Origin: Zavarzinia marina | Lineage (GTDB): Bacteria > Pseudomonadota > Alphaproteobacteria > Zavarziniales > Zavarziniaceae | Direction: 5' to 3' | Assembly (NCBI RefSeq): GCF_021568905.1 | Contig: NZ_JAKGSB010000006.1 | Coordinates: forward strand, 62,001-126,000 | Length of the DNA: 64,000 bases | Shown here: positions 47,536-64,000 of the stretch, piece by piece | How positions within the stretch are numbered: the stretch's first letter is position 1 | Layout: every line of letters begins with the position of its first letter | The notes under the pieces: model-generated | The model's database searches: none | Seen by the model: the letters and a program-made list of their open reading frames with translations, nothing else | Told to the model about the DNA's origin: nothing | Translations under genes and position numbers: made by a program

Positions 47536-48726
47536 TTACTTGTCGATTCCGGCGACGACGCCGGCACCGACGGTGCGGCCGCCCTCGCGGATCGCGAAGC
47601 GAAGACCTTCGTCCATCGCGATCGGGGCGATCAGCTCGACCGTCATCGCGACATTGTCACCCGGCATCACCATCTCGACGCCGTCCGGCAGCGTCACGAT
47701 GCCGGTCACGTCCGTCGTCCGGAAATAGAACTGCGGACGGTAGTTGGTGAAGAACGGGGTGTGGCGCCCGCCCTCTTCCTTCGTCAGGATGTAGGCTTCG
47801 GCCTTGAACTTCGTGTGCGGCGTGATCGAGCCCGGCTTCGCCAGAACCTGACCGCGCTCCACGTCGTCGCGACCAACGCCGCGCAGCAGCGCGCCGATGT
47901 TGTCGCCCGCCTCGCCCTGGTCCAGCAGCTTGCGGAACATCTCGACGCCGGTCACCGTCGTCTTCTTCGTCGCGCGAAGACCGACAATCTCGATTTCCTC
48001 GCCGACCTTCACGATGCCGCGCTCGACACGGCCGGTCACGACGGTGCCGCGGCCCGAGATCGAGAACACGTCCTCGATCGGCATCAGGAACGGACGGTCC
48101 TTCGGACGCTCCGGCTGCGGGATGTAGTCGTCAACCGCCGCCATCAGCTCCAGAACCGCGTCATGACCCAGCTTCTTGTCCGAGTCGTTCAGCGCGCACA
48201 GCGCCGAGCCCCGGATCACCGGAATGTCGTCGCCCGGGAAGTCGTAGGACGACAGCAGCTCGCGAACCTCGAGCTCCACAAGGTCCAGCAGCTCCTCGTC
48301 GTCGACCATGTCGCACTTGTTCAGGAACACCACCAGCGACGGCACGCCCACCTGGCGCGCCAGCAGAATGTGCTCGCGGGTCTGCGGCATCGGGCCGTCG
48401 GCAGCCGACACGACCAGGATCGCGCCGTCCATCTGCGCCGCACCCGTGATCATGTTCTTCACATAGTCGGCGTGGCCCGGGCAGTCGACGTGCGCGTAGT
48501 GCCGGTTCGCCGTCTCGTATTCGACGTGCGCCGTCGAGATCGTGATGCCCCGCGCGCGCTCCTCCGGCGCCTTGTCGATCATGTCATAGGCCGTGAACGA
48601 CGCACCGCCCGTCTCCGCCAGGACCTTGGTGATCGCCGCCGTCAGCGACGTCTTGCCATGGTCGACGTGACCGATCGTACCGATGTTGCAATGCGGCTTG
48701 TCCCGCTTGAAACTTTCCTTGGCCAT
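47536..48726 (-). CDS. tuf: Elongation factor Tu
   Basis: GTPase that delivers aminoacyl-tRNA to the ribosome, 396 residues. G1 GHVDHGKT at about 19-26, G3 [12 protein letters not shown] and G4 NKCDMVDD are intact; the domain II/III boundary looks normal. ATG 48726. Lies between fusA and rpsJ. A second tuf copy is common in such genomes but is not in this window. Confidence 0.98.
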
Positions 48727-48759
48727 TCTAGGCTCTCCGTAACGTTATCGGTTGCGAAC

Positions 48760-50838
<2,079 letters not shown>

Positions 50839-50850
50839 GATACGCTCCCG

Positions 50851-51704
<854 letters not shown>

Positions 51705-52034: not shown

Positions 52035-52484
52035 TCAGGGCCGAAAGGCCAGGAGCACGGCGCCACCCGCGACCATCGCGACCCCCAGCCAATTGACCGC
52101 CGACAGCCGCTCGCCGAGGAAGATGGCGGCGAAGACGGCGACGAAGACGATGCTGAGCTTGTCGACCGGCGCCACCCGGGCGGCATCGCCGAGTTTCAGC
52201 GCCCTGAAATAGCAGAGCCACGACGCCCCCGTGGCCGCCCCCGACAGCACGAGGAACAGCCAACTCCGCCCCGGCACGCCGGCGGGCGACTGCCAGTGGC
52301 CGGAAGCCCAGAGGATGCCGGCGGTGAAGCAGAGGATGACGACGGTGCGCACGAAGGTCGCGAAATCGGGATCGACCTCGGCCACGCCGATCTTGGCGAG
52401 GATCGCCGTCAGGGCCGCGAAGCCGGCCGCCAGCAGGGCCCAGAACAGCCAGCCGGACGGCCAGGCGGACAGCAGGTCGCGCAT
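52035..52484 (-). CDS. Single-repeat EamA membrane protein
   Basis: Half-size drug/metabolite transporter-like protein of 149 residues with about five hydrophobic segments. The stretches ALLAAGFAALTAILAKIGVA and WLCYFRALKLGDAARVAPVDKL (in two parts) belong to one EamA repeat, so it probably dimerises or pairs with another half. ATG 52484 lies 17 bases after the amidase stop codon and could be cotranscribed. Family members of this length are common and their substrates unknown. Confidence 0.8.
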   Translation of the reverse strand: MRDLLSAWPSGWLFWALLAAGFAALTAILAKIGVAEVDPDFATFVRTVVILCFTAGILWASGHWQSPAGVPGRSWLFLVLSGAATGASWLCYFRALKLGDAARVAPVDKLSIVFVAVFAAIFLGERLSAVNWLGVAMVAGGAVLLAFRP

Positions 52485-52500: not shown

Positions 52501-53904
52501 TCAGGCGGGACCCGGCACCGGCGCCGCGACGACGCCGGCCGCCTCGAGCGCGGCGGCGGCGCGAAGAACGAGATCCTCGCGCCAGGGCGCGGCGATGAGT
52601 TGGACGCCGATGGGCAGCCCGCCGGGTGCCGCGGCCGGCACCGGCACGGCGCAGACCGGCAGGCCGATCGCGGAGATCGGCTGGGTGAAGAGGCCGAACA
52701 TGGGGCGCAGCGGCACGGTCTTGCCGCGCAGGTCCATGGTCTTCTGGCCGACCTTCGGCGCGCACATGGGGGTGGCGGGCGCGATCAGCAGGTCGAATTC
52801 CTCGAACAGGGCCGCCGCCCGGCCGGCGTACCAGCGCCGCACCTGATGGGCCCGGACCGACCAGGCGGCGGGCAGCAGGGCGCCGGCGAGGAAACGGTCC
52901 CGCGTCTCGGGATCGAAGTCCGCCGCCCTGGCGCGCAGCCGGCCCAGGTGAAAGGCGGCGCTTTCCGTATTGGTGATGATGAAGGCCGCGGCCCTGCCTT
53001 CCGCCGCCCCCTCCAGTTCGACGGTCGCGCGGGCGCCCAAGGCCCCGGCCACCAGACCGACGGCGCGCGCCGCCTCGGGCATGCCTTCGGTATCGAAGTG
53101 ACCGCCGAGCACGGCGACCTGCAACCCGCCGATGCCGGCATCCAGGATCGGCGAGACGGCTTCGACCGGCCGCTTCACGCAGGCGTGGTCCTCCGCGTCG
53201 TGCCCCTGCATCAGGTCGTAGGCGAGAGCGAGGTCGGCCGTGCAGCGGGCGAAGGGCCCCAGATGGTCGAGACTGTCGCAGAAGGGAAAGCTGCGGCTGC
53301 GCGGCAGGCGGCCATAGGTCGGCTTCAGGCCGAAGATGCCGCACAGCGACGACGGCACCCGGATCGAGCCGTTGGTGTCGGAGCCGAGCGAGATCGGCGC
53401 CAGCCCGCCCCCGGTGGCGGCACCGCAGCCGGACGAGGAGCCGCCGGCCATATGGTCCGGGTCGTGGGGGTTGCGGCAGGCGCCGTCGTGAAAATTCTCG
53501 CCCGTGAAGTCATAGGCGTATTCGCCCATGTTCAGGCCGCCCAGGATGACCGCGTCCGCCGCCAGCAGGCGTTCCACCAGCACGGCGTCGCGCCGTGCCG
53601 GGTTGCGCTCGCGGTTGATCAGGCTGCCGGCCCGCGTCGGCAGGTCCTCGAGATCGAACAGATTCTTCACCGCGAAGGGCACGCCGGCCAGCGGCCCCAG
53701 GCGCTCGCCCCTGGCGTGGCGATCGTCGATCGCCTGGGCGATGGCGAGTGCCCGTTCGGCGGTGACGTCGGTATAGGCGTTCAGAGTGGGATCGACGGTC
53801 GCGATCCGGTCGAGAAAGAGGCGCGTGACCGCGACGGCGGTGGTGCGCCCGTCGCGGACGGCGGATGCGATCTCATGGGCCGGGGCGAAGGGATCGACGC
53901 TCAT
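52501..53904 (-). CDS. AtzE/HpxY-like amidase
   Basis: Amidase-signature hydrolase of 467 residues. The Ser-cisSer-Lys triad is visible: K80 in GVPFAVKNLFD, S156 in GGSSSGCG and nucleophile S180 in GSDTNGSIRVPSS. The GSDTNGS form, with Asn instead of the usual second Gly, fits the AtzE branch. That branch includes 1-carboxybiuret hydrolase of the cyanuric acid pathway and the HpxY protein of oxalurate catabolism. ATG 53904 overlaps the stop of the 70-residue AtzG-like gene by 4 bases. Neighbouring AtzG-, AtzH- and biuret-hydrolase-like genes support this branch over GatA. The exact substrate is inferred. Confidence 0.88.
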   Translation of the reverse strand: MSVDPFAPAHEIASAVRDGRTTAVAVTRLFLDRIATVDPTLNAYTDVTAERALAIAQAIDDRHARGERLGPLAGVPFAVKNLFDLEDLPTRAGSLINRERNPARRDAVLVERLLAADAVILGGLNMGEYAYDFTGENFHDGACRNPHDPDHMAGGSSSGCGAATGGGLAPISLGSDTNGSIRVPSSLCGIFGLKPTYGRLPRSRSFPFCDSLDHLGPFARCTADLALAYDLMQGHDAEDHACVKRPVEAVSPILDAGIGGLQVAVLGGHFDTEGMPEAARAVGLVAGALGARATVELEGAAEGRAAAFIITNTESAAFHLGRLRARAADFDPETRDRFLAGALLPAAWSVRAHQVRRWYAGRAAALFEEFDLLIAPATPMCAPKVGQKTMDLRGKTVPLRPMFGLFTQPISAIGLPVCAVPVPAAAPGGLPIGVQLIAAPWREDLVLRAAAALEAAGVVAAPVPGPA

Positions 53905-54113
53905 GCCCCCTCTCCCTTGGGTGCCACCGGCTCGAAGGTGCCGTCGAGGTCCAGGGTATCGGCCGGCACCGGCGCCGCTTCGACCAGGGCCGCCATGTCG
54001 GCGGCGAGCTTCAGGAACTGGAGAACGCCGGGGCGCTGCGACGGGGTGATGGTCAGGCCGAGAAGGGCGGCATTGGCGTCTAGACAGGCTTCGGGATCGA
54101 AATCGGCAGGCAT
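53901..54113 (-). CDS. AtzG/HpxX-like small subunit (DUF4089)
   Basis: Small helical protein of 70 residues related to AtzG, which forms a stable complex with AtzE much as GatC does with GatA. The pattern LDANAALLGLTITPSQRPGV and FLKLAADMAALVEAAPV fits DUF4089. The start codon ATG 54113 is followed by the usual acidic leader, and the ATGA overlap with the amidase indicates equimolar production. A strong terminator lies between it and the permease gene upstream, so this pair may need its own promoter. Confidence 0.78.
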   Translation of the reverse strand: MPADFDPEACLDANAALLGLTITPSQRPGVLQFLKLAADMAALVEAAPVPADTLDLDGTFEPVAPKGEGA

Positions 54114-54167
54114 GAGCACCTCGAACGGACGGCGACAGGCAGGCAGGCCATGGGCAGAGCATACAGT

Positions 54168-54223
54168 GAAAAAGGTGCCGCCCCGAGACGCTTCTCGGCG
54201 GGCCGGGAAGCGTCTCGGGGCGG
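54168..54223 (-). terminator. Intrinsic terminator between permease and amidase genes
   Basis: Perfect 17-bp arms CCGCCCCGAGACGCTTC (54178-54194) and its inverse (54207-54223) enclose twelve bases; on the minus strand CACCTTTTT follows. It closes the permease transcript 54 bases after its stop codon. Confidence 0.85.
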
Positions 54224-54276
54224 TGTGGCGCCGGGATCCCGCGGGAGACCCCGAAAGCGGCCTTGTGGTGCGAGCC

Positions 54277-55860
54277 CTATTCCGCGGGTTCGGGGACCGG
54301 GTGATTGTGCCCGCCCCCGACGTTGACGGCCGACGGCACGACCCGGCGCGAGGCGAGCGCCAGGAAGGCGGCGACCAGGACATAGCCGGCGACCACCGTC
54401 GGGCTTTCGCCGATGCCGATCGAATGGCTGTGCATGAAGCCGAAGAAGGTCAGCGCCGCCGCCGCCAGGGCGAAGATGCTGGCCTTCATGAACTGGCGTT
54501 CGATGATGAAGACGGCGATGGCGCCGAGCATCAGCCCGCCCAGGATGGCGCCGCCGCCGAGCACTTCGAGCCCGTGGTAGAGCACGCCGTTCATGCCGAG
54601 CTTGTCGATGCCGACGGCCGCCGCCGAGGTGCCGGCGGCGCCGAGGGCGCCGTCGATCTGAACCTTGGCCCAATCCGCCAGATGGGGCGTCAGCGCCAGC
54701 ACGATGGCGGGGGCATGGCGATGCGGGGTCTCCTGGAAGGCCTGGGAGCCGATGAGCATGCCGATATAGAGAAGGATGGGCGAGATCGCCACGACCGGCA
54801 CCAGGGCCAGCAGCACGGCGATGATGCCGAACCACGACAGCACGATGACCATGGCGCCGACGGCCGCCGAATAGCCGATGCGCCCGCCCATGGCCTTCCA
54901 GCCCGGATGGCCGATATAGACCGCGTTGATGAAGGGATTGCCCATCAGGCAGCCGATCAGGGAGACGACGCCGTCCGCCGTCAGCACCCGCGTGGTCGGA
55001 TAGGCGTCGCCCGCGACTTCCGCCGATTCCACATTGTCCATGGCCTCGACAAGGTCGTAGATGCCGAAGGGAATGGCGGTGACCAGGATGATGCCGAGGA
55101 AGTTGAAGCCGTGGAAGACATGGTCGAAGGCCGGGATCGGGATCGAGAAACCGAAGGACGAGAAGGCCTCGCCCAGCCCCGCGACCGACATGCCGCCGAA
55201 ATCGAAGCCGAACAGGGTGGAGCCCCAGGCGATGACCATGCCGGCGGCGATGGCGACCAGACCGGCCGGAATGCCCTTCGGATATTTCAGCCCGCCGAAC
55301 CAGGCCATGAGGATGACGCAGAAACAGGCGAGCCCGATCACCGGCGTCATGAACATCTCCAGCGCCGGCTTCATCGAGATGAAGGTGACCGAGACGCCGG
55401 CCAGCGTGCCGAGGAGGGCGGCGCGCGGCGTGATGCGCCGGATATAGGGCGCGACGAAGCCGCCGACCATCAGCACGAAGCTCTGGATGAAGACCCAGGT
55501 CAGGCCCGCTTCCCAGCCCATGATCGGATCGCCGGTCGAAAGCGAGATCGGCAGCATGATGACGAAGGTGACGACGAACATATGCGGCACGGAAATGCCG
55601 GACGGCAGGGCGCAGACGTCGGTGCGCCCGGTCTTCAGCGCCAGCCGATAGGCGAGAAATGCGTAATATCCGGTCGACAGGCACATCATCAGGCCCATGG
55701 CGGGCAGGATGCGGCCGAAGACGATGTCGTCCGGCATCTTGAGGACGAAGCGCAACAGGCCGGTCAGCACCAGCATGTTGACGAGGATGTTGGTGCCGAA
55801 CCCGAAGAAGGCGTTGAAGTCGCCCGGTGTCCAGATTTTCGGCTTGGTAAGCGCCGTCAT
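54277..55860 (-). CDS. NCS2-type xanthine/uracil-like permease
   Basis: Multispanning transporter of 527 residues from the NCS2/AzgA-like permeases that move nucleobases and related heterocycles. Many hydrophobic segments are visible from residue 18 to 505. The loops TGRTDVCALPSGISVPHMFV and RRITPRAALLGTLAGVSVTF (each about 20 residues) match the subgroup, and EAMDNVESAEVAGDAYPTTR is the conserved acidic motif. A His-rich tail (GGGHNHPVP) ends the protein. ATG 55860. It lies just downstream of the biuret-hydrolase-like gene and probably imports that pathway's substrate. Confidence 0.87.
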   Translation of the reverse strand: MTALTKPKIWTPGDFNAFFGFGTNILVNMLVLTGLLRFVLKMPDDIVFGRILPAMGLMMCLSTGYYAFLAYRLALKTGRTDVCALPSGISVPHMFVVTFVIMLPISLSTGDPIMGWEAGLTWVFIQSFVLMVGGFVAPYIRRITPRAALLGTLAGVSVTFISMKPALEMFMTPVIGLACFCVILMAWFGGLKYPKGIPAGLVAIAAGMVIAWGSTLFGFDFGGMSVAGLGEAFSSFGFSIPIPAFDHVFHGFNFLGIILVTAIPFGIYDLVEAMDNVESAEVAGDAYPTTRVLTADGVVSLIGCLMGNPFINAVYIGHPGWKAMGGRIGYSAAVGAMVIVLSWFGIIAVLLALVPVVAISPILLYIGMLIGSQAFQETPHRHAPAIVLALTPHLADWAKVQIDGALGAAGTSAAAVGIDKLGMNGVLYHGLEVLGGGAILGGLMLGAIAVFIIERQFMKASIFALAAAALTFFGFMHSHSIGIGESPTVVAGYVLVAAFLALASRRVVPSAVNVGGGHNHPVPEPAE

Positions 55861-55876
55861 GATCCCACCCCCTGCA

Positions 55877-56569
55877 CTATTCCGCCGCTTCTGCGGCGGA
55901 TGCCTCGAGCGCCGAAACGACCCTGGCCGCATCGGTCACCCACCCAAAGATGCCGCCTTGCGCCTTCACCATGCGCAGCGCGACGTCGTGAAATTCGGGA
56001 AAATAGGAACCGCAGGCGTCGCCCACGGCAATGCAGCGATAGCCGCGGTCGTTGCCCTCGCGGATCGTCGTGTGGACGCAGACCTCGGTGGTGACGCCGC
56101 AGACCAGCAGCGTGTCGATCGCCTTGTTGGCGAGGACGAGCCCGAGGTCGGTGGCGAAGAAGGCCCCCTTGCCCGGCTTGTCGATCACCACCTCGCCCTC
56201 GATCGGATAGAGTTCGGGGATGATGTCCTGGCCCGGTTCGCCCCGGATCAGGATCCGGCCCATGGGCCCCGGCGCGCCGATCCTGTGGGTCGGGCTGCCC
56301 CGGTTCACCTTGGCCGGCGGCGCGTCGGAAAGATCGGGGCGATGGCCCTCGCGGGTGTGGACGACCAGCATGCCGGCACGGCGCGCCGCCGCCAGCAGGG
56401 CCTTGGCCGGCGGGATCGCCTTCGCCAGCAGGGAGACGTCGTTGCCCAGCGTCTCGCCGAAACCGCCAGGTTCGAGAAAGTCGCGCTGCATGTCGATGAT
56501 GACCAGCGCCGTCTTCTCGACCGACGCGCTGATCTTCCCCGGCTCTGCATCGATGATCATCGTCGTCAT
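55877..56569 (-). CDS. Isochorismatase-like cysteine amidohydrolase, biuret-hydrolase-like
   Basis: Cysteine hydrolase of 230 residues. The catalytic triad is present as D26 in IIDMQRDF, K131/K134 in DKPGKGAFF and C164 in GVTTEVCVHTT, the nucleophile. The blocks REGHRPDLSDAPPAK and GRILIRGEPGQDIIPEL strongly resemble biuret amidohydrolases and related ureido-hydrolases. ATG 56569 has AAAGGAGG seven bases upstream. It is the first gene of a leftward unit with the NCS2 permease and is divergent from the AtzH/HpxZ-like gene. Biuret, ureidoacrylate or allantoate-like ureides are candidate substrates; biuret is the best fit by motif and neighbours. Confidence 0.88.
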   Translation of the reverse strand: MTTMIIDAEPGKISASVEKTALVIIDMQRDFLEPGGFGETLGNDVSLLAKAIPPAKALLAAARRAGMLVVHTREGHRPDLSDAPPAKVNRGSPTHRIGAPGPMGRILIRGEPGQDIIPELYPIEGEVVIDKPGKGAFFATDLGLVLANKAIDTLLVCGVTTEVCVHTTIREGNDRGYRCIAVGDACGSYFPEFHDVALRMVKAQGGIFGWVTDAARVVSALEASAAEAAE

Positions 56570-56590
56570 GCCCAGCCTCCTTTGTTGTCT

Positions 56591-56600
56591 TGTATGCAAT
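56591..56600. promoter_or_regulatory. Candidate operator TGTATGCAAT
   Basis: TGTATGCAAT just upstream of the biuret-hydrolase-like gene matches TGTATACAAT at 56730-56739, with a half-site TGTATGCG at 56693. GntR/FadR-type repressors bind such TGTATACA palindromes. No regulator gene of that type is in the window. Confidence 0.35.
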
Positions 56601-56729
56601 GCAAGAGGCGGACCAAGCCCCACCGCACCTGCGAATGCGGCGTAGCCGTCTGTTTTCAAAGGGTATTTGGAGAGGTCGTGAAGTGATTAAACTGTATGCG
56701 AGGCATTGTTGATGCTCAAAAAAACAGCA

Positions 56730-56746
56730 TGTATACAATTTATAAT
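56730..56746 (+). promoter_or_regulatory. Candidate operator and -10 element for the AtzH-like gene
   Basis: TGTATACAAT (56730-56739) contains the palindrome TGTATACA and abuts a perfect TATAAT at 56741-56746, 42 bases before the AtzH/HpxZ-like start codon. Binding there would block initiation. No convincing -35 was found. Confidence 0.4.
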
Positions 56747-56787
56747 CAGTGACGCCGCAAAATGGCCCGTTTGCGCAGGAGAGCAGG

Positions 56788-57198
56788 ATGAGTGAGACGC
56801 CCCTTCCCGGCCCGGTCCCGGGCTTCGCCGTCGACGATCCGGCGACCGTCGCCGAAATCACGGCGGCCTTCGAGGCCTACGAGCGGGCGCTGATGGCGAA
56901 CGACGTCGCGGCACTCGGCTATTTCTTCTGGTCCGATCCCCGGGTGCTGCGCTACGGCCCGACCGAGAACCTCTATGGCCCGGAAGCGATCGCGAACTAT
57001 CGCGCGGCGCGCGACGTGACCGACATGGCCCGGCGCCTGGAAAACACCCGCATCCACGCCTTCGGTCCCGATTTCGGGGTGGCCAATACCGAATATGTCC
57101 GCCTGAAGTCCGGCAAGCGCGGCCGCCAGACCCAGGTCTGGGCCCGCCTCGCCGACGGCTGGCGCATCGTCTCGGCCCACGTCAGCCTTTTGCCCTGA
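56788..57198 (+). CDS. AtzH/HpxZ-like protein (DUF3225)
   Basis: NTF2-fold protein of 136 residues related to HpxZ of oxalurate catabolism and AtzH of the cyanuric acid pathway, the latter reported to act on dicarboxyurea. Recognised by FEAYERALMANDVAALGYFF followed by WSDPRVLRYGPTENLYG and the terminal WRIVSAHVSLL. AGGAGAG precedes ATG 56788. It is divergent from the biuret-hydrolase-like gene. Together with AtzG- and AtzE-like genes it completes an hpxXYZ/atzGEH set. Confidence 0.86.
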   Translation: MSETPLPGPVPGFAVDDPATVAEITAAFEAYERALMANDVAALGYFFWSDPRVLRYGPTENLYGPEAIANYRAARDVTDMARRLENTRIHAFGPDFGVANTEYVRLKSGKRGRQTQVWARLADGWRIVSAHVSLLP

Positions 57199-57264: not shown

Positions 57265-58353
57265 TCAGCCGCAGGAATAGAGACCGCCGGCCTTGTTGAT
57301 GATGCCGTTGTATTCCTTGAAGATGCCGACGACCTTGGCCTTCAGCTCGCTCTCGGCCGCGATCTCGTCCCAGAACTTCAGGGCGGCCTGCTCCACCTGG
57401 CCCCATTCGCCGGCGGGAATGGTGCGCAGCTTCAGCTTGTCGCCGGTGGCGCGCAGCTTCGCCTCGCCGCCCCAGTACCACTGGTTGCGATAGGTGTGGC
57501 TGGCCTCGACGCAGGCCATGTAGAGCTCCTTCAGGTGCTCCGGCAGCTCCATCCACTTCTTCTCGTTGGCATACCAGGAACCGATCCAGGCGCCGGAGAT
57601 ATTGTTGGTCAGGAAGTGGTCGGTGACGTCGGCCCAGCCCACCGTGTAATCCTCGGTGATGCCCGACCAGGACATGCCGTCCAATTCGCCCGTCTGCACC
57701 GCGACCTGCACGTCCTCATAGGGCAGCGTCACCGGCACCACGCCGAACTGGGCGAGGAAACGGCCGGCGGTCGGGAAAGTGTAGAGGCGCAGCCCCTCCA
57801 GATCGGCGAGCGACTTCACTTCCTTCTTGGTGTTGAAGTTGCACGGATCCTGCCCCGCGGCCGAAAGCCAGACCACGCCGCCCGCCTTCTTGTAGGCGTC
57901 GCGCCAGATGTCGGCCAGGCCGTATTGCTGGAACAGGGTCGGCACGTCGAGAGCGTGCTTGGTGGCGAAGGGGAAGTAACCGCCGAAGACCGAAACCTCG
58001 ACCGGCGCCGACATGCTGTCATCGTCGGAATGGACGGCGTCGATGGTGCCGTTCTGGAGCGCGCGGAACAGCTCGCCCGTCGGCACCAGCTGGTCGGCGT
58101 AATAGACCTCGATCTCCATCTCGCCGTTGGCCGCCTTGTTGAAGGCGTCGACGAAGGGCTTGGTCACGAACTGGCCGAGGACGGAACCGGCATAGGTCTG
58201 CAGGCGCCACTTGATGGGTTCCGCCGCCTTGACGTAGGGCGCGCCGATCGTGGTGGCCGCCGCCGTGGCGACGGCACCGGTGCCCGCCTTCTTCATGAAA
58301 TCGCGCCGGCTGGTGCTCTTGGGCGCCGTCAGGTCCTTGATCTTCTTCGTCAT
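57265..58353 (-). CDS. TRAP transporter solute-binding protein DctP family
   Basis: Periplasmic solute receptor of 362 residues for a TRAP uptake system. A Tat signal SRRDFMKKAG at about residues 18-27 indicates folded export. The mature protein has the family motif QTYAGSVLGQFVTKPFVDAF and the conserved region SLADLEGLRLYTFPTAGRFL. These usually bind organic acids through an Arg salt bridge. ATG 58353 is preferred over ATG 58356 by its spacing from GGAGG. It is the last gene of the SDR-dctQ-dctM-dctP unit. Substrate unknown. Confidence 0.92.
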   Translation of the reverse strand: MTKKIKDLTAPKSTSRRDFMKKAGTGAVATAAATTIGAPYVKAAEPIKWRLQTYAGSVLGQFVTKPFVDAFNKAANGEMEIEVYYADQLVPTGELFRALQNGTIDAVHSDDDSMSAPVEVSVFGGYFPFATKHALDVPTLFQQYGLADIWRDAYKKAGGVVWLSAAGQDPCNFNTKKEVKSLADLEGLRLYTFPTAGRFLAQFGVVPVTLPYEDVQVAVQTGELDGMSWSGITEDYTVGWADVTDHFLTNNISGAWIGSWYANEKKWMELPEHLKELYMACVEASHTYRNQWYWGGEAKLRATGDKLKLRTIPAGEWGQVEQAALKFWDEIAAESELKAKVVGIFKEYNGIINKAGGLYSCG

Positions 58354-58380
58354 CATCTGCCTCCACAATGAACGCTGGTC

Positions 58381-59703
58381 TCAGCCGTAGAAGTAATCGG
58401 GCAGCCAGGTGGCTATCCCCGGGAAAGCGCCGATGATGATGAGCGTGAAGATCATCAGCGCGACGAAAGGCACGATGGAGCGATAGATGTCCGGCAGCGT
58501 GATCTCGGGCGGCGCCATCGATCGCATCAGGAAGAGGTTGTAGCCGAAGGGCGGCGTCAGATAGGCGACCTGGCAGGTGATGGTGTAGAGCACGCCGTAC
58601 CAGATCAGGTTGAAGTCCAGTTCCGCCGCCAGCGGGATGAACAGCGGCGCCACGATCACCAGCATCGCCGTATCGTCGAGGAAGACGCCGAGGATGAGGA
58701 AGGTGAGCTGCATCAGGATCAGCACCGTCCAGCGGTCGAGGCCGAGGTCGGCGAGGAAGAGCTGCTCGATCGACTTCACCGCGCCCAGCCCGTCGAACAC
58801 CGCGCCGAAGCAGAGCGCCGCCAGGATGATCCACATGAACATGCAGGAGATCGCCAGCGTCTTCCGCGTCGTGTCGTGCAGCACCTTCCAGGTCATGCGC
58901 CCGCGCGCGATGGCGGCGACGATGGAGGCGGTGGCGCCGACGGCCGAGCTTTCGACCAGGCTGGTGACGCCGGTCAGGAACAGCCCGGTCATGGAGACGA
59001 AGATCGCGAGCGGAATGATGCCGGCGCGCAGCAGGGCGAACTTGTCGGACCAGGAATAGCTGGCGCGCTCCTCCTTCGACAGCGGCGGACCGAGATGCGG
59101 CTGAAACCCGTTCCGTATCACGATGTAGAGGATGAACAGCGCCGCCATCAGGAGGCCGGGAAAGACGCCGGCCATCCACAGATGCCCGACCGGCTGGCGC
59201 GCGATCATGCCGTAGAGCACGAGGACGACCGAGGGCGGCACCAGGATGCCGAGGGTCGAGCCCGCCTGGATGACGCCGGTCACCATGATCTTGTCATAGC
59301 CCCGGCGCAGCAGTTCCGGCATGGCGATGGTGGCGCCGACCGCCATGCCGGCGACCGAAAGCCCGTTGATCGCCGAGATGATGACCATCAGCAGGATGGT
59401 GCCGATGGCGAGCCCGCCCCGGACCGGCCCCATCCAGACGTGGAACATGCGGTAGAGATCGTCGGCGATCCGCGATTCCGCCAGCATGTAACCCATGAAG
59501 ACGAAGAGCGGCAGGGTCAGCAGCGGATACCACTTCATCAGCTTCATGGCGGCGGAGAAGCTCATCTGCGCCGAACCGTCGCCCCACAGCAGCAGGGCGG
59601 AGGCGGCGCCGACGAAACCGATGACCGCGAACACCCGCTGCCCCGTGAGCAGCAGGACCATCATGCTGGAGAACATGAGGAGGGCGATGAGATCGTAGCT
59701 CAC
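58381..59703 (-). CDS. TRAP transporter large permease DctM
   Basis: Large membrane subunit of 440 residues with about twelve transmembrane segments that drives Na+-coupled uptake. AAINGLSVAGMAVGATIAMP and VIQAGSTLGILVPPSVVLVL regions match DctM, and the end contains TCQVAYLTPPFGYNLFLMRS. The start is GTG 59703, overlapping the dctQ stop (GTGA). The family is often labelled mannitol/chloroaromatic-type. Confidence 0.93.
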   Translation of the reverse strand: MSYDLIALLMFSSMMVLLLTGQRVFAVIGFVGAASALLLWGDGSAQMSFSAAMKLMKWYPLLTLPLFVFMGYMLAESRIADDLYRMFHVWMGPVRGGLAIGTILLMVIISAINGLSVAGMAVGATIAMPELLRRGYDKIMVTGVIQAGSTLGILVPPSVVLVLYGMIARQPVGHLWMAGVFPGLLMAALFILYIVIRNGFQPHLGPPLSKEERASYSWSDKFALLRAGIIPLAIFVSMTGLFLTGVTSLVESSAVGATASIVAAIARGRMTWKVLHDTTRKTLAISCMFMWIILAALCFGAVFDGLGAVKSIEQLFLADLGLDRWTVLILMQLTFLILGVFLDDTAMLVIVAPLFIPLAAELDFNLIWYGVLYTITCQVAYLTPPFGYNLFLMRSMAPPEITLPDIYRSIVPFVALMIFTLIIIGAFPGIATWLPDYFYG

Positions 59704-60209
59704 GAGACGGCCTCGCCCTTGATCACCGCCCAATCCTTGAACAGGATCGCGACCGACTGCAGGAGGGCGAGGCCGATGCCGATGCACATGACCACCTTCA
59801 CCGGGGCGACATAGGGCCGCCAGGCGGAGAAGCTGCGCTCGCCGGTCTCGAAGGCATAGACCGTACTGTCGATGGCGCCATAGAACAGCAGGCAGATGAA
59901 GAACAGCATGGCGAGGTCGGTGAAGATGTTGACCTTGGCCTTGCGCGTCACGGTCCAGCCGCCATAGAGCAGGTCCATGCGCACATGTTCCTCATGTTTC
60001 AGCGACCAGGCCCCGCCCAGCAGGTAATAGGCGACCATGACGAACTGGCCCAATTCCACGCCCCAATTGATGGGCAGGAAAAACACCTTCATGATCGACG
60101 AATAAAGCAAAAGAAAAAGCAGCGCGAATACGAGGTACATCGCGACGAGGCCAGTGTAATGACTGACCGTATCCATCACTCTTATATAGGTCTTAATCGC
60201 TTTCGGCAT
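59700..60209 (-). CDS. TRAP transporter small permease DctQ
   Basis: Four-helix membrane subunit of 169 residues joining receptor and large permease. ALLFLLLYSSIMKVFFLPIN and the GGAWSLKHEEHVRMDLLYGG motif (conserved His-x-x-His-Val-Arg region) identify DctQ. ATG 60209. Coupled to dctM by a 4-base overlap. Confidence 0.9.
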   Translation of the reverse strand: MPKAIKTYIRVMDTVSHYTGLVAMYLVFALLFLLLYSSIMKVFFLPINWGVELGQFVMVAYYLLGGAWSLKHEEHVRMDLLYGGWTVTRKAKVNIFTDLAMLFFICLLFYGAIDSTVYAFETGERSFSAWRPYVAPVKVVMCIGIGLALLQSVAILFKDWAVIKGEAVS

Positions 60210-60294: not shown

Positions 60295-61062
60295 TCAGGC
60301 GGCGCTGAAGCCGTTGTCGACGAAAATTTGTGCACCATTGACGAAGCTCGCCTCGTCGGAGGCGAGGAAGAGGGCCGCCCTGGCGACTTCCTCCGGCTCG
60401 CCGATGCGGCCCTGCTGGGCCGCCAGCGCTTCGTCCGAAACGTCGACGCCCAGCGCCTGGAGATCCTTCACCTCGCGAAGGCCGTGGGGTGTCCGGATGA
60501 AGCCGGGGCAGACGGCGTTGCAGCGGATGTTGCGGTCGCGGAATTCAACCGCTATGGCGCGGGCGAACATGTGGCACGCGCCCTTGGTGGTGTCGTAGAG
60601 CACTTCCATGGGCGTGGCATAGACCGCCGAAATGGAGGACGTGCAGACGATCGAGCCGCCGCCCGCCGCGATCATCCCGGGCAGCACCGCCCGGGTCATC
60701 AGGAACATGGAGCGCACGTTGACGGCGTGCAGCCAGTCCCATTCCGAGACCGTGATGTCGAGGAAGGGTTTGATGACGATGGTGCCGGCGTGATTGAACA
60801 GGGTGGTGACGGGACCGAGCGCCTCGGTCGCCCTGGTGACGGCGGCCTGGACCTGGGCTTCGTCCGACACGTCGGCGGCGAAGGCTTCGGCCGTGCCGCC
60901 GGCGGCGCGGATCGTCTCGACCGTCTCCCGCGCGGCGGCTTCGTTGATGTCGACGATGGCGACCCTGGCCCCTTCCGCCGCGAAGAGTATGGAAGCGGCG
61001 CCGCCCATGCCGGTCGCCCCGCCGGAAATGATCGCCACCTTGCCGTCCAGACGCCCCGCCAT
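60295..61062 (-). CDS. Short-chain dehydrogenase/reductase
   Basis: NAD(P)-dependent SDR of 255 residues, classical type. Coenzyme motif GGATGMG at 14-20, NHAG at 90-93 (NHAG in place of the usual NNAG), catalytic Ser142/143, Tyr156 and Lys160. D38 in VDIN suggests NAD preference. ATG 61062 chosen because homologues begin with a short leader before GKVAIISGG. It is the first gene of the unit that ends with the TRAP transporter. Likely it oxidises the imported hydroxy acid or alcohol, or reduces a ketone; substrate unknown. Confidence 0.92.
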   Translation of the reverse strand: MAGRLDGKVAIISGGATGMGGAASILFAAEGARVAIVDINEAAARETVETIRAAGGTAEAFAADVSDEAQVQAAVTRATEALGPVTTLFNHAGTIVIKPFLDITVSEWDWLHAVNVRSMFLMTRAVLPGMIAAGGGSIVCTSSISAVYATPMEVLYDTTKGACHMFARAIAVEFRDRNIRCNAVCPGFIRTPHGLREVKDLQALGVDVSDEALAAQQGRIGEPEEVARAALFLASDEASFVNGAQIFVDNGFSAA

Positions 61063-62078: not shown

Positions 62079-62333
62079 GTGTCCCGCACCACGACGATGA
62101 CCGTCCGCGTCAGCGGCGCCCTCAGCGAATTTGTCGCCTCGAATGTCGGCGAGGACGGCAGCTATGAAAACGTCAGCGAATATATTCGCGACCTCATTCG
62201 CCGCGACAAGGAACGGGTGGAGCGTGAAGCCTTCGACCGCCTGAAGGCCGAACTGACGCGAGCTTTCGCCGCGCCCGAGACATCCTACCGGCCGATCACC
62301 GCCGCCGAAATCGTCGCCCGCAACGAAGACTGA
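62079..62333 (+). CDS. ParD-like antitoxin
   Basis: Ribbon-helix-helix protein of 84 residues. The N-terminal strand TTTMTVRVSGALSEFVAS is followed by the RHH helices NVSEYIRDLIRRDKERVE, and the flexible C-terminal half (AELTRAFAAPETSYRPITAA) should wrap the toxin. GTG 62079 has GGAGG seven bases upstream. It precedes a ParE-like toxin gene by seven bases. Confidence 0.87.
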   Translation: MSRTTTMTVRVSGALSEFVASNVGEDGSYENVSEYIRDLIRRDKERVEREAFDRLKAELTRAFAAPETSYRPITAAEIVARNED

Positions 62334-62340
62334 GCGGCCC

Positions 62341-62652
62341 ATGGCCACGGTCCGCGTCCAGGAATCCGCCACGTTCCGGCTCGACGAGATTTATCGCTAT
62401 ACCCGCGACCGCTGGGGCCGCGATCAAGCCGCCGCCTATATCACCGGCCTCTTCGCCAGCTTCGACATGATCGAGCGCCGGGGCGTGACCTCCCGCCCCA
62501 TCCCCGCCGAATTCGGCCTCGACGGTTACGTTTATCGTTACCAGCGCCACTTTGTCTATTGGCGCCGGCTCTCTGACGGCGACATCGGTATCGTCACCAT
62601 CCTGCACGAGCGCATGCATCAGATCGACCGCTTCCGCGACGATTTCGTGTGA
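62341..62652 (+). CDS. ParE-like toxin (RelE/ParE superfamily)
   Basis: Toxin of 103 residues; ParE proteins inhibit DNA gyrase. The sequence LDEIYRYTRDRWGRDQAAAY and GLDGYVYRYQRHFVYWRR, ending with VTILHERMHQIDRF, fits the RelE/ParE fold. Family is clear; whether it targets gyrase or mRNA cannot be told from sequence. ATG 62341. It forms a type II toxin-antitoxin pair with the upstream gene. Confidence 0.88.
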   Translation: MATVRVQESATFRLDEIYRYTRDRWGRDQAAAYITGLFASFDMIERRGVTSRPIPAEFGLDGYVYRYQRHFVYWRRLSDGDIGIVTILHERMHQIDRFRDDFV

Positions 62653-62808: not shown

Positions 62809-64000
62809 TCAGGCGGCGTCGGGGTTGTCCTCGACAGCCGGCATGTCGCCGCGTTCGAGGGCCGCCAGTTCCTTGTCGCGGTCGTGGGCGACTTCCTTCA
62901 GGCGGTTCATCATGGCGCCGGTACCCGCCGGGATCAGGCGGCCGACGATGACGTTCTCCTTCAGGCCGACCAGGCTGTCGACCTTGCCGGCGGTCGCCGC
63001 TTCGGTCAGCACGCGCGTGGTTTCCTGGAAGGACGCCGCAGAGATGAAGGAGCGGGTCTGCAGCGAGGCCTTGGTGATGCCCTGCAGAACCGGGCTGCCG
63101 GTCGCGGGGCGCAGGCCCAGCTTGATCGTCCTTGCGTTCTCTTCCTCGAACTCGACGCGGTCCACCTGCTCGCCCTGGAGGAAGGTGGTGGCGCCCGAGT
63201 CCTCGATCTCGACCTTCTGCAGCATCTGGCGAACGATCACCTCGATGTGCTTGTCGTTGATCTTCACGCCCTGGAGCCGGTAGACGTCCTGGATCTCGTT
63301 GACGAGATAGCGGGCGAGCGCCTCGACGCCCATGACCTTCAGGATGTCGTGCGGCGCCGGATTGCCGTCGAGGAGATAGTCACCCTTCTGGATGATGTCG
63401 CCTTCCTGGACCGTGATGTGCTTGCCCTTCGGGATCAGATATTCCTGGGCATCGGCATCGTCGCCTTCCAGCGGCTGCAGGATCAGGCGGCGCTTGTTCT
63501 TGTAGTCCTTGCCGAATTCGACACGGCCCGAACGCTCGGCGATAATCGCGTGATCCTTCGGCCGGCGCGCCTCGAACAATTCGGCGACGCGCGGCAGACC
63601 GCCGGTGATGTCGCGGGTCTTGGCCGATTCCAGCGGGATACGGGCCAGCACGTCGCCGGCGTTGATCTTGCCGCCGTCCTCGACCGAGAGGATGGAGCCG
63701 GCGGCCAGGAAGTAGCGCACTTCCGTGCCGTTCGGCTGCAGGACCGGGTTGCCGGCCTCGTCGCGCAGACCGATGCGGGGACGCAGGTCGCCCGCCTTCG
63801 GCTGGCCACGCCAGTCGACCACTTCCTTCGAGGCGATACCCGTCGCCTCGTCCATCACCTCGCGCATCGACACGCCTTCGACGAGGTCCATATAGGCCGC
63901 GTAACCTTCGCGTTCCGAGATGATCGGCAGGGTCCGGGGATCCCATTCGACCAGCTTGGTGCCCTTGGTCACGGTCTGGCCGTCGTCGACGAAGAGACGC
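62809..64000 (-). CDS. rpoC: RNA polymerase beta' subunit, C-terminal part (window edge)
   Basis: The last 397 codons of the catalytic beta' subunit; the gene continues past the right edge. Recognised by the [20 protein letters not shown] stretch, [20 protein letters not shown] (trigger-loop-downstream region) and [16 protein letters not shown]. The stop is at 62809-62811 and is followed by a strong terminator. The missing N-terminal 1000 residues and rpoB should lie to the right. Confidence 0.96.

Follow-up and report, generated by a model that had tools for sequence, protein, structure and literature searches.

A predicted triuret hydrolase and its AtzG-, AtzE- and AtzH-type neighbours

The stretch of DNA analysed here, referred to as the window, comprises 64,000 nucleotides of Zavarzinia marina (contig NZ_JAKGSB010000006.1, positions 62,001 to 126,000). 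It contains five genes coding for an isochorismatase-like cysteine hydrolase, a permease and proteins of the AtzG, AtzE and AtzH types, all of which are present in the open reading frame (ORF) calls and stand far above chance. On the minus strand, the hydrolase gene (trtA) is followed by the permease gene, atzG and atzE, while atzH is divergent from trtA. A first-pass annotation made from the sequence had located the genes correctly and proposed a self-contained route for biuret or a similar ureide. Our results suggest that the set is probably a cluster for the use of triuret as a nitrogen source, in which AtzE, AtzG and AtzH (AtzEGH) would form a side route of a known pathway.

The hydrolase had been described as an isochorismatase-fold enzyme resembling biuret hydrolase (BiuH). 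The fold stood (PF00857, 154.2 bits), the resemblance to BiuH did not. The top PDB matches, 6XIX and 6XJ4, are the triuret hydrolase TrtA of Herbaspirillum sp. BH-1 (PMC7948467). The window protein is identical to 6XIX at 131 of 212 aligned residues (62%) and at all 15 catalytic, substrate and specificity residues checked; its catalytic triad is D26, K131 and C164 (D24, K129 and C162 in the reference) and its substrate residues are E74, K134 and Q204 (E72, K132 and Q202). Six positions are reported to differ between TrtA and BiuH (PMC7948467). The window hydrolase has the TrtA-type letter at every one of them (F35, N41, A134, E160, Y187 and I205), giving the signature FNAEYI and not the BiuH-type YYSDTV. 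Replacement of F35, N41 or Y187 by the BiuH letter reportedly leaves less than 10% of triuret activity; E160D keeps about half of it and A134S is harmless (PMC7948467). FNAEYI was found in 100 of 105 TrtA-called proteins from 105 loci, the remaining five deviating at one position, and 27 of 29 BiuH-called proteins start with YYSD, the two exceptions being a Salipiger plasmid protein and a second family member from the genome of Z. marina itself. The NCBIfam BiuH model NF050097 gave 267.7 bits for the window protein, below the cut-off of 370, with another TrtA at 253.3 bits and a BiuH at 422.8 bits as controls. Because of this score and the six TrtA-type residues, we rejected a biuret hydrolase identity. 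Judged by its sequence, the protein is a TrtA: it groups with this other ureidohydrolase by residue signature, not by a tree, and the biuret-hydrolase reading of the first-pass annotation falls. Among the matches listed, the nearest named locus is that of a Zavarzinia metagenome-assembled genome (MAG), whose TrtA matches at 89%.

Three further claims about the set held, namely an AtzE-type amidase with a GSDTNGS motif, a 70-residue AtzG-like partner and an AtzH/HpxZ-like protein. AtzE scored 636 bits with TIGR02715 (cut-off 425.75) and 666.7 bits with NF006631 (cut-off 461), contains GSDTNGS and conserves the Lys-cisSer-Ser triad (K80, cis-Ser156, Ser180). With models over their cut-offs, this triad and an AtzG-like partner gene, it has the sequence marks of the AtzE family. 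Its best PDB match is 6C62 (471 bits), which was deposited as 'Biuret hydrolase' yet has the sequence of AtzE from pADP-1. AtzG matched PF13318 at 41.8 bits (cut-off 24). AtzH scored 158.4 bits with PF11533 and 151.8 bits with NF033625 (cut-off 135), and is 49% identical to pADP-1 AtzH.

Other steps were sought in the rest of the genome. AtzF is encoded on another contig (833.7 bits, over cut-off), directly after urea carboxylase (1850 bits), and a urease alpha subunit is also encoded. No member of the AtzD/TrzD family was found genome-wide (PF09663 search, which detected it in three of three control records), and the only HpxW match in the genome is 31% identical, two control records having been matched by the same search; the absence of a cyanuric acid hydrolase and of an HpxW-like gene, both noted earlier, thereby extends to the whole genome. 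No protein of the genome exceeded the BiuH cut-off. The only other strong BiuH-family match (221 bits) is to a protein with the signature DKCQNE and three changed substrate residues, so that allophanate appears to be reached from carboxybiuret mainly by AtzEGH in this genome, TrtB not having been searched for. AllG gave no match in the genome, in a search run without a positive control.

The permease had been called NCS2-type, which holds for its fold only. No Pfam match was obtained even at E≤10 for three of three homologues, and no NCBIfam family was assigned. An AlphaFold model built from 32 homologues (mean pLDDT 83.4) resembles UapA, UraA, SVCT1, AZG1 and SLC26 transporters, with VIA-align Z scores of 30.1 for UapA, 27.6 for AtSULTR4;1 and 27.3 for UraA; the SLC26 rows score like the NCS2 ones, so that the comparison does not single out NCS2 within this UapA/UraA/SLC26-type fold. 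Copies from Paroceanicella and Terrarubrum are annotated as 'regulator' in the database. In 64 of 80 named TrtA loci (see below), trtA is immediately followed by the permease gene, which has the same orientation, after a median gap of 74 bp (18-1529); at one locus, L065, the permease matched in one search and fell under the threshold of the later count. In a class-wide survey of 385 genomes, the permease was present in 13 at E≤1e-40 and in 11 at E≤1e-100, and in these 11 its neighbour is TrtA in ten cases and a BiuH-type protein in one. This steady place behind trtA makes the permease, as our best guess, the candidate for triuret import.

Gene order and chromosomal setting

The order AtzH/TrtA/permease/AtzG/AtzE is the same in the Paroceanicella plasmid pD4M1A and in all three same-genus survey genomes; in one of the latter (G343) AtzG had been overlooked by the gene caller and was recovered by tblastn. 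For atzH, the longest ORF of the window starts at GTG 56749, whereas the gene caller prefers ATG 56788, the start used in the table.

Features of the trtA-atzGEH region, in window coordinates
Feature	Position	Strand	Basis
trtA, predicted triuret hydrolase (isochorismatase-like cysteine hydrolase), 230 aa	55877..56569	-	62% identity to PDB 6XIX; signature FNAEYI
Permease, 527 aa, NAT/SLC26-type fold, candidate triuret importer	54277..55860	-	Position downstream of trtA; predicted fold
atzG-like small AtzE partner, 70 aa	53901..54113	-	PF13318; 4-bp overlap with atzE start
atzE, predicted 1-carboxybiuret amidohydrolase, 467 aa (K80, cis-Ser156, Ser180)	52501..53904	-	TIGR02715, NF006631, PDB match 6C62
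atzH, 1,3-dicarboxyurea decarboxylase/amidase-like NTF2-fold protein, divergent from trtA	56788..57198	+	PF11533; 49% identity to pADP-1 AtzH
Intergenic stretch trtA/atzH, 218 bp, putative shared regulatory region	56570..56787	.	Inferred from gene starts only
EamA half-size transporter, optional neighbour	52035..52484	-	PF00892; match in 1/3 same-genus loci
TRAP transporter DctP/M/Q, adjoins the set, outside the conserved unit	57265..60209	-	0/3 same-genus loci match

The set sits between the 3' part of rpoC and rpsL-rpsG-fusA-tuf (window 47536-51704 and 62809-64000), inside the rpoBC-str region; rpoC, rpsL, rpsG and tuf are family matches and fusA was recognised by eye. In the stretches fetched from the same-genus survey genomes, the set lies beside rpsL in three of three and has rpoC on the other side in two of three. 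The TRAP transporter and a short-chain dehydrogenase/reductase (SDR, 60295-61062) were considered as members of the set and rejected, since the stretches fetched for the three same-genus loci contained no match to either. Further along (62079-62652), a small ORF with no Pfam match precedes a ParE-like toxin gene (PF05016, 33.7 bits).

Neighbourhoods of TrtA relatives and phylogeny of AtzE

The named TrtA loci are the best 80 of at least 589 relatives, and many of their flanks are short. Within 10 kb of TrtA, AtzE was found in 10 of them, BiuH in 16, AllG in 4 and AtzF in 12. The class survey called TrtA-type proteins by a match of about 250 bits or more and AtzE at E≤1e-100. TrtA-type matches occurred in 35 of the 385 genomes (22 of the 35 residue-checked) and AtzE in 31; the two were found together in 19 genomes against 2.8 expected, kinship being uncorrected in this figure. 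AtzE lay no more than 11.5 kb from TrtA in 9 of the 35 TrtA-type genomes, and the association was also seen in other lineages. One survey genome (G283) carries TrtA and the permease at one place, with AtzE and AtzH of the TrtA-associated type 2.9 Mb away.

A tree of 53 rows (52 AtzE and one outgroup) placed the window AtzE in a starred clade (support 99/99) of 15 rows, comprising the window, 13 others from TrtA loci and one from an AtzF locus. Outside this clade, a starred group of four rows contains pADP-1 AtzE and the Klebsiella protein (HpxY). The label 'TrtA locus' required seven changes on the tree, at least four of them forced by starred branches, compared to a mean of 17.3 in shuffles. 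The label is strongly clustered, yet repeated gains or losses of it have occurred.

Two side observations concern other proteins at such loci. A ChrR-like cupin of about 110 residues is a neighbour of TrtA at 6 of the 24 loci with BiuH and at none of the 21 with AtzE, two loci entering both counts (examples are L059:8999-9331 on the minus strand and L061:10688-11029 on the plus strand); our guess is that it is the carboxybiuret decarboxylase TrtB. Near the AtzG/E/H genes of a Salipiger plasmid (L149:112-1487), two isochorismatase-like hydrolases are encoded in tandem, their signatures being WSADAL and WAADSL. They are of neither the TrtA nor the BiuH type and are perhaps another ureide enzyme.

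A putative triuret route, its alternatives and known systems

Triuret is a nitrogen-rich by-product of uric acid and of urea fertiliser. In the route that we propose, the permease would import triuret and TrtA would release one ammonia from it to give 1-carboxybiuret, a chemistry demonstrated for the Herbaspirillum enzyme (PMC7948467). By analogy with the Pseudomonas ADP proteins, AtzE with AtzG would then take a second ammonia to yield 1,3-dicarboxyurea, and AtzH would decarboxylate this to allophanate, from which AtzF, encoded on the other contig, would free the last two ammonias. AtzEG is reported to deaminate carboxybiuret, with AtzH probably converting dicarboxyurea to allophanate (PMC6219798). 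AtzEG downstream fits TrtA because the product of the latter is the substrate of the former (PMC7948467, PMC6219798). Carboxybiuret breaks down to biuret on its own (half-life about 20 min), and the published triuret route uses BiuH (PMC7948467). AtzEGH may replace the TrtB and BiuH steps and outrun this spontaneous decay; since the genome shows no BiuH, biuret is probably a dead end in this organism. No TrtA-AtzEGH cluster was found in the open-access literature searched, which left outside supplements and the key TrtB and AtzEG papers. The proposed route combines known parts in a new way, with all activities predicted from sequence. What survives of the biuret proposal is a ureide route lacking AtzD and an HpxW orthologue; it is not fully self-contained, given that AtzF lies on another contig.

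Several observations weigh against a triuret cluster. BLASTP gave no alignment between the window AtzG and that of pADP-1. Eight of nine pocket residues of AtzH, including Tyr22 and Arg46, are identical to the reference, F94 being replaced by Tyr, and since Klebsiella HpxZ has all nine, this pocket cannot separate AtzH from HpxZ. All three same-genus genomes encode a BiuH-type protein elsewhere. BiuH is a commoner neighbour of TrtA than AtzE is (16 against 10 of the 80 loci), and 55 of the 80 have neither in their fetched flanks, many of which are short. AtzE and BiuH are both present in L131, L153, L184 and L199; we dropped mutual exclusion as an argument, with one of the 80 loci holding both compared to two expected, plus three further loci. 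Finally, the AtzE tree has a biased sample, some of its rows having been collected by way of TrtA, and it does not distinguish gains of the label from losses.

The best-surviving alternative, which we consider unlikely, is a general nitrogen-scavenging island in which TrtA degrades triuret while AtzEGH serves another ureide such as oxalurate. In its favour, AtzE often occurs away from TrtA: of the 31 AtzE genomes in the class survey, 22 have AtzE unlinked to TrtA and 12 of these lack a TrtA-type match of about 250 bits or more. However, the supported AtzE clade is nearly confined to TrtA loci (14 of 15 rows), the joint occurrence in 19 genomes exceeds the 2.8 expected, with kinship uncorrected, and the substrate of AtzEG is what TrtA makes. 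A shift of the window's TrtA branch to a linear ureide other than triuret is less probable still: close to the active site this branch departs from the canonical type (e.g., VCGVTTEVCVHTT vs VAGVTTEVCVQTT), but the 15 checked residues that touch or place the substrate are all unchanged. A biuret route starting from a biuret hydrolase has very little in its favour beyond BiuH being the best NCBIfam model of the hydrolase (E = 6.4e-80), a match that remains under the cut-off and is countered by the six TrtA-type residues. Biuret hydrolysis gives allophanate directly, which would leave AtzEG without a substrate and AtzEGH idle, making biuret an unlikely substrate of the set. Just as improbable is an oxalurate route of the HpxXYZ type in purine breakdown: AtzH does exceed the NCBIfam HpxZ cut-off, yet pADP-1 AtzH is likewise annotated as HpxZ, the HpxW match is only 31% identical, AtzE falls outside the group with the Klebsiella protein, and the neighbour is a triuret hydrolase. 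Cyanuric acid as the starting point (an atzD operon) was rejected, with AtzD/TrzD absent from the genome and found in all three controls.

A third downstream module was seen next to TrtA relatives. In Escherichia coli BL21(DE3) (L218:9012-17199), a TrtA homologue with 65% identity and the same signature heads an operon continuing with AllH, FdrA, AllG, carbamate kinase, a stand-alone allophanate hydrolase C-terminal domain (PF21986) and a cytosine-type permease. The full TrtA-AllH-FdrA-AllG operon was read only in BL21 and in the chicken E. coli plasmid p135-1 (L142). A 1.7-kb hydrolase and AllH probe (at least 80% of its length) matched 1547 of 5426 complete E. coli genomes, with 125 of 1614 places on plasmids. 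AllG and carbamate kinase also lie near TrtA in L137, L138, L050, L052, L056, L057 and L141 (Rhodospirillaceae MAGs, Edwardsiella and Alphaproteobacteria), and comammox bacteria are reported to have allFGH-allK beside trtA/biuH (PMC12625717). The E. coli TrtA-AllFGH case was not found in the open-access papers searched; the operon could be an energy-conserving route for triuret or another ureide. We give about an even chance to a broader scheme in which TrtA is the common entry enzyme for three interchangeable modules, BiuH with AtzF (published), AtzEG with AtzH and AtzF (the window) and AllFGH with carbamate kinase (E. coli, Edwardsiella and others), and in which the Pfam-less permease, whose family has so far lacked a known substrate, is dedicated to importing triuret. 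Under this scheme the use of triuret, and not of cyanuric acid, would be one of the chief natural functions of AtzGEH in some Alphaproteobacteria.

AtzEGH-type enzymes have so far been known mainly from herbicide breakdown; the cluster suggests that they may serve triuret, a natural by-product of uric acid. If the triuret reading is correct, triuret breakdown would gain a second enzymatic branch and a named candidate transporter. The 2018 paper on AtzH reportedly left open the role of the many atzG-atzE-atzH clusters without atzD (PMC6219798), and for one group of these clusters an adjacent triuret hydrolase offers a specific answer that can be put to the test.

Compared to known systems, the set shares homologous AtzG/E/H-type proteins with Klebsiella HpxXYZ (L145), but its AtzE is 49% identical, falls in another tree group and is accompanied in the genome by no closer HpxW relative than the match described above. 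With atzDGEHF of pADP-1 (L144; PMC6219798) it would share the chemistry of AtzG, AtzE, AtzH and AtzF from carboxybiuret onwards; there, however, carboxybiuret comes from cyanuric acid via AtzD, whereas here it would come from triuret via TrtA, the two AtzE proteins are 52% identical and of different clades, and the genome lacks atzD. The set has its own permease, whereas an ABC transporter, bmpA-nupABC, is reported beside such genes (PMC12625717). Unlike the TrtA-TrtB-BiuH-AtzF pathway of Herbaspirillum sp. BH-1, it would handle carboxybiuret by AtzEG and AtzH, with AtzF encoded elsewhere in the genome; the entry enzyme TrtA and the end point, allophanate and AtzF, would be common to both (PMC7948467).

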